A DNA stretch of 64,000 nucleotides, from NCBI RefSeq assembly GCF_016863275.1, contig NZ_BOOO01000027.1, positions 62,001 through 126,000 of the forward strand. Direction: 5' to 3'. Source of the DNA: Planotetraspora mira. GTDB taxonomy: Bacteria; Actinomycetota; Actinomycetes; Streptosporangiales; Streptosporangiaceae. The translations under genes were made by a program, and so were the position numbers. Positions within the stretch are counted from its first letter, which is position 1. Each line of letters opens with the position of its first letter. Positions 39,438-42,259 of the stretch are shown in pieces. The notes beneath the pieces were generated by a model that made no database searches, had not been told where the DNA came from, and saw nothing but the letters and a program-made list of their open reading frames with translations.

Positions 39438-40670
39438 ATGAAGGGCCACGTCGTCATCGCGCCGGACAAGTTCAGGGGGTCGCTGACCGCGCCCCAGGTG
39501 GTCGCCCATGTGGCGGCGGGGCTGGGGAGGGTGCCGGTGGTGGGGCTGCCGGTGGCCGACGGCGGCGAAGGAACGGTGGACGCCGTGGTGGCCTCCGGCT
39601 TCACCCGGGTCGAGGTCGAGGTGACCGGCCCGACGGGGGAGCCGGTCCCCGCTTCGTACGCCGTGCGCGACGAGCCTCATGACGCGGCGGACGAAAGCAC
39701 GGCGTCCCCCCGGCCTGGCGGCAGGGTGGCGGTGATCGAGCTCGCGGAGGCGTCAGGGCTGCGGAGGCTGCCCGGTGCGCCCGCCCCGCTCACCGCGACC
39801 AGTTACGGGACCGGGGAGCTCATCGCCCATGCCGTACGGCACGGCGCGACGAGGATCGTCCTCGGGCTGGGCGGCAGCGCCTGCACCGACGGGGGAGCGG
39901 GCATGGTGCAGGCGCTGGGCGCGCGGCTGCTGGACGAGGACGGCGAGGAGTTGCCCTTCGGCGGCGCCGCGCTGCGGCGTCTCGACAGGATCGATGTGTC
40001 GGCGCTCGCTCAGCCGGCCCCGGGCGACCCAGCGGGGGGAGGAACCGGCGTCGGCGGGGTGGAGTTCGTCGTCGCGAGCGATGTGGACAATCCGCTGCTC
40101 GGGCCGTACGGCGCGGCCGCCGTCTACGGCCCGCAGAAGGGGGCCTCGCCGCAGGATGTGGCGGTCCTGGAGAAGGGGCTGGCCAGGCTGGCCGCGGTCG
40201 CGGTGCACACGCACGGTCTCACGGGATCGATCGAGCACGACGGCGTTGTGCGGAGCATGGGGGTGGCCGGCCGCCCAGGAGCCGGGGCGGCAGGGGGAGT
40301 GGGTTTCGCCGCGCTCGCCTTCCTGGGGGCGGAGATCCGCCCCGGGATCGGATACCTCCTCGAGTTGCTGGAGTTCGACCGGCAGGTCGAAGGCGCACGC
40401 CTGGTCGTCACGGGAGAGGGATCGATCGACGAACAGTCGTTGCGCGGCAAGACCCCCGTGGGCGTCGCGGCGGCGGCCGCCAAGCACGGGGTGCCGGTCG
40501 TGGCCGTGTGCGGACGGCGGTCCATCGGCGACGCCGAGCTTCAGGCGGTGGGGATCGAGGCGGTCTACGCCCTGACCGACATCGAGTCCGACGTCCGGCG
40601 CTGCATCGCCGAGGCGGGACCGCTGCTCGAACGCGTCGCCCACACCATCGCCGCCACCCATTTGCCGTGA
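39438..40670 (+). CDS. glxK: Glycerate 2-kinase (GlxK/GarK family)
   Basis: 410-aa kinase that phosphorylates glycerate, the exit of the glyoxylate module to glycolysis. Starts MKGHVVIAPDKFRGSLTAPQVV (APDSFKGSLSA in E. coli), with LPVADGGEGTVDA (about 36-48), VLGLGGSACTDGGAGM (about 140) and LVVTGEGSIDEQSLRGKTPVGVA near 330. ATG 39438 has AAGGGG upstream. A 115-bp gap separates it from the ALDH-like gene. Its TGA stop is formed by the first bases of the repeat array, so the array begins exactly at the gene end. About 30 residues longer than E. coli enzymes because of Gly/Pro-rich inserts. Confidence 0.92.
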   Translation: MKGHVVIAPDKFRGSLTAPQVVAHVAAGLGRVPVVGLPVADGGEGTVDAVVASGFTRVEVEVTGPTGEPVPASYAVRDEPHDAADESTASPRPGGRVAVIELAEASGLRRLPGAPAPLTATSYGTGELIAHAVRHGATRIVLGLGGSACTDGGAGMVQALGARLLDEDGEELPFGGAALRRLDRIDVSALAQPAPGDPAGGGTGVGGVEFVVASDVDNPLLGPYGAAAVYGPQKGASPQDVAVLEKGLARLAAVAVHTHGLTGSIEHDGVVRSMGVAGRPGAGAAGGVGFAALAFLGAEIRPGIGYLLELLEFDRQVEGARLVVTGEGSIDEQSLRGKTPVGVAAAAAKHGVPVVAVCGRRSIGDAELQAVGIEAVYALTDIESDVRRCIAEAGPLLERVAHTIAATHLP

Positions 40671-41135
40671 TCATGCACAGGTTCGTGATCAAGTGCTCCC
40701 ACCTGCGCCTTCACCCGGCGTGATCATGCACAGATTCGGTGCAGGCCCTGCCTGCCTGGCCATTCTCGCGTCGTGATCATGCGCAAGCTCGCCGAGAGGT
40801 GGGCGGACCAGGGGAAACACCCTGCGTGATCATGCAGATGGTCTTCGAGGGGCGTTCCTGGACGGAGTGCTGGCCTTGGGGGCGTTTGGCGGTTGCGTGG
40901 CGATGGGGTGAATGCATGATCGCGTGGCCCTCAAGTGCAGGTCGGCAGGGGTGAATGCGAATCTGCGCATGATCACGGAGTGGGAACGTCCAGGCAGACA
41001 GGGCCTTCACCGAACCTGTGCATGATCACGCCGGGTGAAGGCGCAGTTCAGTGGGGCTTTCGCCGAACCTGTGCATGATCACCAACTAGGGAGGGGCAGG
41101 TTGGTGGCCATGATCACGAACCTGTGCATGATCAC
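40667..41135. repeat. Mirror-symmetric array of 53-bp-spaced GTGATCATGCACAGGTTCG repeats
   Basis: Noncoding element of 469 bp. The 19-mer GTGATCATGCACAGGTTCG and variants start at 40667, 40720, 40773 and 40826 (plus strand), exactly 53 bp apart. Its reverse complement occurs at 40958-40976, 41011-41029, 41064-41082 and 41117-41135, plus a decayed copy ending at 40923, again exactly 53 bp apart. Start and end coordinates of matching copies all sum to 81802, so the array is symmetric about 40901. The two outermost 25 bp (40667-40691 and 41111-41135) are perfect inverted repeats. Between repeats are 34-bp segments, some shared between arms (CTGCGCCTTCACCCGGC). 53 is not a multiple of 3 and the short frames inside have no start signals, so it is not coding. 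Confidence 0.92.
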
Positions 41136-41227
41136 GCGTCATCATGTGTTGGCTTGCCGGTATGGCAACAAACTTTGCCAGCTGCCGCCTCAGTCGCCGA
41201 CCATTTCGGCGAATGGAGGTACAACCC

Positions 41228-42259
41228 ATGACCGCAGAAGAAGTACAGCGTTATGACGTCGTGGTCGTCGGCGGGGGAGCGGCCGGCCTCAGCGGGGCCC
41301 TCACCCTGGCACGGGCACGTCGTTCTGTGCTGGTGATCGACGGCGGACGGCCGCGCAACGCCCCGGCCGCGCAGGTGCACACCTACCTGGCCCGTGAGGG
41401 GACGCCGCCCTCGGAGTTGCTGGCCACGGGCCGCGCCGAGGTGGCCGGTTACGGCGGGGAGGTCGTGAAGGGCCACGTCGTGGCGGCCGAGCGCCAGGAC
41501 GCCGGAGGCTTCCTGGTCGTGCTCGAAGGCGGGTCGACGGTGGCCGCGGACCGGTTGCTGGTGACCACCGGTCTGGTCGACGAGCTGCCTCAGGTGCCCG
41601 GGCTGGCGGAGCGGTGGGGACGCGACGTGCTGCACTGCCCGTACTGCCATGGTTGGGAGGTGCGCGACGAACCGATCGGCGTCATCGCCACCGGCCCGAT
41701 GGCGGTCCACCAGGCGCTCCTGTGGCGGCAGTGGAGCAAGGACGTGATCCTCTTCCTCCACACGGCGCCCGCGCCCACCGACGACGAGCGGGAACGACTG
41801 GCCGCCCGCGACGTCGCCGTGGTGGAAGGACAGGTGACCGGACTCGAGGTCGAGGATGACAGACTCACCGGCGTACGGCTGGCAGGCGGCCGGGTGGTCT
41901 CCCGCAGGGCTCTCGCGACGACTCCGCGGTTCACCGCACGGGCCGAGTTGCTCACCGGTCTCGGCCTCGAGACGACAGACCAGGAGATGGGCGGCCACGT
42001 GATCGGCAGTTACATCGCCGCCGACCCGTCAGGAGCCACCGGCGTGCCCGGTGTGTGGGTGGCCGGCAACGTGGCCAACCTGATGGATCAGGTCATCGGC
42101 TCAGCCGCCGCGGGTGTGCGCGCCGGTGCGGCGATCAACGCCGACCTGATCGCCGAGGAGACGCGCCGCGCGGTGGCCGCCCGCCGGGCTCCGTTCTCCG
42201 CGGCGATGGAACGCGAGGTCTGCGAGGCCGTGCTCGGCGATCGCCGGCACGGCCTCTGA
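41228..42259 (+). CDS. NAD(P)/FAD-dependent oxidoreductase (thioredoxin reductase-like)
   Basis: 343-aa flavoprotein of the TrxB family: FAD motif VVVGGGAAGLSGALTLARA (residues 12-30), redox pair in LHCPYCHGWEVRD (CPYC, about 138-141), and C-terminal VWVAGNVANLMDQVIGSAAAGVRAGAAINADL. The NADPH motif region reads IGVIATGPMAVHQAL, which lacks a clear GxGxxA, so the electron donor is uncertain. GGAGG lies 8 nt before ATG 41228. The 90-bp leader after the repeat array contains TTGCC-N5-GGCAA (41154-41168). It ends convergently 70 bp from a TetR gene. Confidence 0.88.
   Translation: MTAEEVQRYDVVVVGGGAAGLSGALTLARARRSVLVIDGGRPRNAPAAQVHTYLAREGTPPSELLATGRAEVAGYGGEVVKGHVVAAERQDAGGFLVVLEGGSTVAADRLLVTTGLVDELPQVPGLAERWGRDVLHCPYCHGWEVRDEPIGVIATGPMAVHQALLWRQWSKDVILFLHTAPAPTDDERERLAARDVAVVEGQVTGLEVEDDRLTGVRLAGGRVVSRRALATTPRFTARAELLTGLGLETTDQEMGGHVIGSYIAADPSGATGVPGVWVAGNVANLMDQVIGSAAAGVRAGAAINADLIAEETRRAVAARRAPFSAAMEREVCEAVLGDRRHGL

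Follow-up and report, generated by a model that had tools for sequence, protein, structure and literature searches.

REP, BIME and REPIN elements are dispersed, intergenic repeats that often lie at gene ends and often occur as inverted pairs. The DNA uptake sequences of Neisseria and Pasteurellaceae are short conserved words that also form inverted pairs at gene ends, in lineage dialects that change in concert, but they do not stand in phased arrays. The arrays described here share the short word, the gene-end pairs and the dialects with these uptake sequences; they are phased, and no role in uptake is known for them. A further point of comparison is Gbn (SCO1839) of Streptomyces coelicolor, which, according to PMC9239103, binds GATC followed by (A/T)T at thousands of sites and can bind one fragment with several molecules at once. 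It is reported from over 90% of the species in most genera surveyed. The arrays have in common with Gbn sites the GATC(A/T)T core and the large number of sites, multiple molecules per fragment being a feature of Gbn. Unlike the arrays, the Gbn sites are described in the relevant passages of PMC9239103 neither as 53-bp phased or mirror arrays nor as placed at gene ends, and its main text makes no mention of intergenic, tandem or convergent sites, of any name beginning Streptosporang-, or of Nonomuraea, Microbispora or Planotetraspora.

The array in the window and its 53-bp unit

The window, that is, the whole stretch of DNA analysed, comprises 64,000 nucleotides of Planotetraspora mira (genome G000; other G numbers denote compared genomes). 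It holds an array of two opposed arms between a glycerate kinase gene and a flavoprotein gene, with the following features:

39438..40670, plus strand: glycerate kinase gene (glxK), the upstream neighbour
40667..40835, plus strand: left arm, with full 53-bp units at 40667-40719, 40720-40772 and 40773-40825, followed by a terminal anchor at 40826-40835
40668..40670, plus strand: TGA within the first anchor, the glycerate kinase stop codon
40703..40792, plus strand: left partner of a 90-nt inverted repeat common to both arms with a one-unit shift; the other partner is 40957-41046
40836..40913, no strand: interior of 78 bp from innermost anchor to innermost anchor, where the family profile predicts no conserved motif (flat after the last anchor)
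40914..41135, minus strand: right arm, with full 53-bp units at 41083-41135, 41030-41082, 40977-41029 and 40924-40976, followed by a terminal anchor of weaker sequence at 40914-40923
41228..42259, plus strand: gene of a thioredoxin-reductase-like flavoprotein, the downstream neighbour (trxB of the earlier note), start picked by eye

An earlier note on this DNA had reported plus-strand copies of a 19-mer at 40667, 40720, 40773 and 40826 and minus-strand copies ending at 40976, 41029, 41082 and 41135. All were recovered with a 53-bp step, together with the decayed fifth minus-strand copy, which ends at 40923 and has the weaker sequence GCGATCATGCATT. Seven matches to the 19-mer (up to three mismatches) fell in the 64-kb window, versus 0.02 expected from shuffles. 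The perfect inverted repeat at the outer ends, claimed as 25 bp, extends over 26 nt, and the segment said to be shared by the arms in shifted register proved to be a 90-nt inverted repeat with 87% complementarity. The constant coordinate sum of mirrored copies (81802) is not additional evidence of symmetry, since the same 53-bp step in two arms always yields a constant sum. The centre had been put at 40901; because the arms are unequal (four versus five anchors), the midpoint of the innermost anchors lies near 40875 instead. The array does begin at the glxK stop codon, as had been noted. A search of window positions 40000-42000 for Rfam RNA families yielded 0 matches at E values of 1 or lower, and the product of the downstream gene scored 74.9 bits, where the curated TrxR cut-off is 343.

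A family profile was derived from 97 sequences (one from Microbispora, the others from Planotetraspora or G000) that yielded 172 arms. Spacings were exactly 53 bp in 435 of 472 cases, 52 bp in 27 and 54 bp in 10; 53 bp corresponds to about five helical turns. Each unit consists of GTGATC(A/T)TGC, then TTCG, then YGACCTG. The anchor GTGATCATGC was 99-100% conserved at every position of the 172-arm profile, partly by choice because the scan tolerated up to two mismatches per anchor; yet 586 of 644 anchors were perfect, with one mismatch in 43 and two in 15. On its 3' side the profile runs through mostly A, a variable stretch, TTCG, a weak middle, YGACCTGS and weak pyrimidines plus C to the next anchor. 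Strong conservation is limited to about 10-19 positions. The profile is flat from the second base after the last anchor, and the sequence 5' of the first anchor is C-rich and G-poor. Arms have two to five anchors, rarely six or seven. One count gave 40 single arms and 66 convergent pairs, with interiors spanning 673-2947 bp in eight of the pairs; another gave 82 arrays, 47 with two opposed arms and 35 single arms.

The motif CAGGTT (unit positions 11-16) resembles the reverse complement of YGACCTG, and one protein may read both. RNA covariation within units was rejected: strong covariation was confined to positions at most two apart, and the few weak distant signals (e.g., 41-50) showed no pairing pattern. 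Helical phasing of the two innermost anchors was also dropped. Four periods were tried, of which 5.25, 11 and 53 gave weak signals (uncorrected p 0.002, 0.026 and 0.003, respectively) and 10.5 was not significant (p 0.10), and phasing between these anchors is therefore left out of the argument.

Distribution, gene context and conservation of the arrays

In the whole G000 genome, the 19-mer had 726 matches with up to three mismatches, and a reversed control had 0. A stricter unit pattern (anchor, YGACCTG in place and next anchor, with up to three mismatches) was applied to 341 genomes of the family. It detected 700 full 53-bp units in G000, 723, 190, 624 and 708 in the four congeners (G001, G002, G003 and G004, respectively), 508 in G105, which is classed in a separate genus, 71 in G242 and 315 in G243. 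Arrays were present in 5 of 15 Microbispora-genus genomes (units: G111 68, G115 75, G117 51, G120 185, G121 12). One or two units each were found in G126, G128, G130 and G134, the G134 match, at three mismatches, being likely due to chance. The other genomes among the 341 had no units, and the reversed control was 0 everywhere. In a class-wide sample of 394 genomes, G432, from outside the family, alone had matches: two, both with three mismatches and a poor middle motif. By our estimate, G000 probably holds more than a hundred arrays. The earlier note had considered that related genomes might show scattered copies without the 53-bp spacing; instead, all five genus genomes searched had this spacing, and inverted symmetry recurred within the stretches read from genus genomes. 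In G121 (L325, L069), the array anchors are decayed, a natural case of lost maintenance.

Gene context was assigned with a simple custom gene finder, in which starts are uncertain and stops exact. Of 82 arrays, 81 were intergenic and one overlapped a predicted gene. Convergent arrays lay between convergent genes in 23 of 47 cases, versus 91 of 541 background gaps, and between divergent genes in 5 of 47, versus 181 of 541; arrays of either kind lay between divergent genes in 10 of 82 cases. The p values for gene context are optimistic because some of the 82 arrays are orthologues in several species, and two or more loci entered the count twice. Among 252 arms, 179 faced the 3' end of the upstream gene. 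The anchor TGA was the stop codon in 45 of these 179, and the remaining ones mostly began 7-50 nt past the stop, none at -3 to +6. Single arms between tandem genes had no clear orientation preference (10 versus 6, p 0.45). Stop-codon overlap was commoner on one contig strand (31/91 versus 14/88, p 0.006), an asymmetry that may be chance since contig strands are arbitrary.

In three genera, an arm separates xdhC from a deaminase gene within what appears to be an operon. At four loci (L225 254-422, L164 7256-7318, L268 3378-3493, L247 3195-3257), the last anchor reaches the beginning of the 8-oxoguanine deaminase gene. In three of these four, the anchor codes for R-D-H-A or R-D-L-A close to the N-terminus of the protein; in L268, it lies just upstream of the predicted start. 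Elsewhere, two facing single arms flank one or two ordinary genes (L247, L268, L107, L120, L134), like an array opened around them. No autonomous element was seen in the long interiors examined, which held ordinary host genes only, judged by eye.

Array positions were frequently conserved between species. Within a selection of collinear stretches from G000 and G003, seven of the nine G000 arrays with both flanks tested had an array at the same G003 junction; of the remaining two, 83647 (C1 stretch) was nearby but shifted in G003, and 45118 was without counterpart. Across a set of loci compared between genera, junctions common to Planotetraspora and Microbispora-genus genomes or G242 included rel/DUF349, xdhC/8-oxoguanine deaminase, sucD (named from its sequence), glycerate kinase and others, the arm at the glycerate kinase junction being oppositely oriented in G117 and G120. 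The anchor word differs by genus, GATCAT in Planotetraspora and mostly GATCTT in Microbispora-genus genomes and the G242 group, and sites at equivalent places therefore show this same difference. Many old sites may have changed in concert, or sites may have been made anew at favoured positions.

Sequence divergence was measured in 11 aligned array pairs from four species pairs, with no anchor required in the second species. Differences affected 0.8-1.5% of anchor positions versus 17-35% of spacer positions. Between G000 and G004, they amounted to 2/260 in anchors, 121/600 in spacers and 165/1841 in flanks (one non-homologous flank included), and between G000 and G003 to 6/403, 314/890 and 412/3541, respectively; two further species pairs, with one array each, had 1/90 and 1/80 in anchors and 36/209 and 62/177 in spacers. 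Anchors are therefore kept more tightly than flanks, while spacers drift.

At the glxK-trxB junction (window 40667-42259; L204, L205, L206), which the earlier note had proposed to compare among related strains for presence or absence, gene content differs between species. An efflux and regulator block occupies the junction in G004 and an ABC-transporter block in G003 and G002 (both named by eye). The glxK stop is at the same codon in G002 and G003, both without an array there, and homology in the glxK region breaks exactly at the array edges or the glxK stop. Clean empty sites were few in the junctions compared: the trxB side in G002 holds a collapsed remnant, and other candidates are messy. 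No target-site duplication was seen in these junctions.

At the rel/DUF349 junction, 25 genomes were searched and 17 had a readable stop-to-stop gap (21 of 28 loci, four genomes twice); the other seven loci, including those of G000 and G003, were read on one side only. The gap was filled by an array in G105, G001, G002 (irregular), G004, G111, G115, G117, G120, G242 and G243, by a decayed array in G121 and by a minimal array in G130. Five genomes were array-free here (G064, G119, G126, G110, G123), and significant hairpins were found in three of the five: G064 (z -3.7), G119 (z -2.7, folded over the first 103 of 233 nt) and G126 (z -7.4). The G110 hairpin was not significant (z -1.4), and the G123 sequence is much like that of G110. 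At the marP junction, compared in 20 genomes, single arms occur in Planotetraspora and G105 and an array in G242; the other genomes of the 20 had no array and no uniform hairpin.

Candidate function of the arrays and rival readings

Starting from the anatomy, phase, position, conservation and distribution of the arrays and from the alternation of array and hairpin at one junction, all observed here, we tentatively propose that the arrays are host-maintained, protein-bound boundaries or terminators at gene ends; from sequence, we infer the protein binding, the identity of the protein, the effect on transcription and the direction of evolution. Each 53-bp unit would probably be the site of a sequence-specific DNA-binding assembly. 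A Gbn-like nucleoid protein that binds GATCWT may recognise the near-invariant anchor GTGATC(A/T)TGC. The TTCG and YGACCTG block, about three turns on and on the same face, may be read by this protein as well or by a partner. Since arms mostly begin at or just past the stop codon and point inward, RNA polymerase exiting a gene would meet a phased row of proteins, and between convergent genes two such rows would meet. The effect would likely be termination or insulation of transcription at gene ends, by roadblock. A multi-site protein-binding array was among the candidates of the earlier note; anchor conservation, fixed phase and the GATCWT match speak for it, although the binding itself is putative.

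The anchor contains GATCWT, with A or T at the variable base according to genus. The match to Gbn is a lead only, because it was found after the motif was seen. In 404 kb of G000, 132 of 713 GATCWT hexamers fell within the 1.6% that is array, in stretches chosen partly for holding arrays. Among 18 small basic proteins of the examined loci, no convincing gbn orthologue was found. Given how widespread Gbn is in most genera studied, it cannot alone explain the patchy arrays in Microbispora, and a second factor would be needed.

Palindromes elsewhere in the family suggest an origin for the arrays. The inverted pair GTGATCNTGC-N2-30-GCANGATCAC was present in 67 of 341 family genomes and was frequent in the array-free genomes G078 (59), G028 (54) and G079 (19), as well as in G130 (20). 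The 26 palindrome loci examined, two of which overlap, were hairpins carrying the same anchor as the arrays; in many, no more than about 30 nt separated the hairpin from a stop codon, and a few were inside predicted genes. TTCG or a similar sequence often followed the palindrome anchor in G074, G075, G076 and G078, as in arrays, but not in G028. In G028 (L307-L311), a different long half-site, GTGATCATGCAGTTTTGAGCACA, builds many similar palindromes, possibly a separate active family. These loci suggest palindromes at gene ends as the source of the arrays: array-free genera still have hairpins with this anchor, and such hairpins would probably have gained units outside both arms. Third units counted from the inside had a similarity of 0.54 between arms, 23% of 35 being at 0.7 or above, and innermost units of the two arms were no more alike (0.36) than units of different arrays (0.35); it therefore seems that new units are copied from one arm to the other on the outer side. 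At the marP junction, G002 carries an exact duplication of a unit. Short repeats containing GTGA, about 17 bp long in G003, lie just beyond the outermost anchor at this junction (L355, L353) and are perhaps the raw material of unit growth.

Several points count against a gene-end boundary: the arm inside an apparent operon, where a strong terminator would be odd, the 10 of 82 arrays between divergent genes, the lack of a clear orientation preference in single arms, the non-uniform hairpins at marP and the strong RNA folding of convergent arrays. The last of these favours a giant RNA hairpin terminator, in which pairing of the two arms in the RNA would halt RNA polymerase or shield the 3' end, as a protein-independent descendant of the hairpins found elsewhere. 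Convergent arrays folded with a mean z of -11.3, 29 of 30 being below -3 (15 shuffles each), and the window array reached z -15.3; array-free genera have hairpins with this anchor, many just past stop codons, and arrays at the rel junction stand where some other genomes have hairpins. However, single arms are common (35/82) and fold modestly (mean z -1.7, 35% below -2, n=40), innermost mirror units are no more alike than background, and pairing does not call for a near-invariant 10-mer throughout the genome. Matched outer flanks, examined as a sign of a hairpin, were rejected because the match within an array was minimal (0.42 versus 0.41, n=73), which also speaks against pairing arms. The long structured RNA listed in the earlier note agrees with the strong folding of convergent arrays, but not with the mirror spacers, whose likeness hardly exceeds background except in outer units, nor with the single arms.

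A second rival is a dispersed repeat of the REP or MITE type, selfish and non-autonomous, which would be tolerated at gene ends only and spread in trans by some enzyme. The hundreds of copies, their patchiness among Microbispora-genus genomes and their intergenic preference are consistent with it, as are the gene-content breakpoints exactly at array edges at the glxK junction, the arms that flank single genes and the greater likeness of outer than inner units of two arms. A search of 20 genomes for PF01797 (Y1, RAYT) found it in 11, among them 5 of the 12 array-bearing genomes tested (G001, G111, G117, G242, G243), but it was absent from the other seven (G000, G002, G003, G004, G105, G115, G120), and RAYT was therefore judged unlikely as a driver. 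In array-free genomes, there were 10 matches in G110, 5 in G123, 1 each in G112 and G119, and 0 in G116. Further evidence against a selfish repeat is that junctions are kept between species and some across genera, that anchors are kept while spacers have diverged, unlike dead copies, that two query arrays matched other arrays at only about 67-86% over short stretches, and that no transposase was seen in the interiors examined. The non-autonomous mobile element of the earlier note is unsupported in its simple form, with many positions conserved between species and some between genera, no transposase seen in the long interiors examined and no target duplication in the junctions compared.

A chromosome-organising array (a nucleoid domain anchor or segregation site, with gene-end placement merely harmless) is quite improbable: many sites on many contigs, a nucleoid-protein-like motif, conserved positions and the one-face phasing implied by the 53-bp step agree with it, but neighbours can be as close as about 5 kb (those at 7.3 and 12.8 kb in the C1 stretch), and such a role needs no abutment to stop codons.

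Because convergent arrays fold strongly and single arms modestly, and given the operon arm, the breaks at the glxK edges and the Y1 transposase in 5 of 12 genomes, we hold the protein-bound gene-end boundary or terminator at slightly below an even chance, and consider the RNA terminator and the selfish repeat each unlikely. A wider claim, that the arrays form a chromosome-wide class of phased nucleoprotein boundaries that replaced hairpin terminators, are under strong purifying selection, grow at the outside and have a recognition word (GATCAT/GATCTT) that changed together with the binding protein, is possible but doubtful.

Comparison with known systems

If the protein-bound boundary reading is true, the arrays would offer a natural system of hundreds of sites for studying how DNA-bound proteins stop or insulate transcription, and how an entire set of sites changes its sequence together with a single binding protein. 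As one genus includes lineages with intact, decayed (G121) and absent arrays, the question can be tested directly. Should the arrays be selfish, repeats that persist with conserved positions, retained anchors and drifting spacers would still be unusual.

The arrays resemble REP, BIME and REPIN elements in being dispersed, intergenic, located at gene ends and arranged in inverted pairs, and differ from them in the many direct units per arm at a 53-bp phase, the strongly diverged spacers, the long-lived positions and the lack of a consistent link to Y1 transposases. The palindromic hairpin unit that characterises REP and REPIN elements is not what the arrays have, as indicated by the absence of pairing covariation and the modest folding of single arms. 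Terminal inverted repeats, as in MITEs, are present in convergent arrays and lacking in single arms. CRISPR arrays do not match, given the few conserved positions, the second motif within the spacer and the two-armed form of 47 of 82 arrays. Intrinsic terminators share the position past the stop codon and alternate with arrays at one junction; in contrast to them, single arms have no strong hairpin, and a particular sequence is conserved beyond pairing. In literature searches, including one for papers containing the string GTGATCATGC, such arrays were not described among the matches listed. To our knowledge, bacteria are not known to mark gene ends by phased rows of protein sites. Dispersed gene-end repeats were already known; as far as tested, a phased, mirrored design in which diverged units are under selection is a new form of them.
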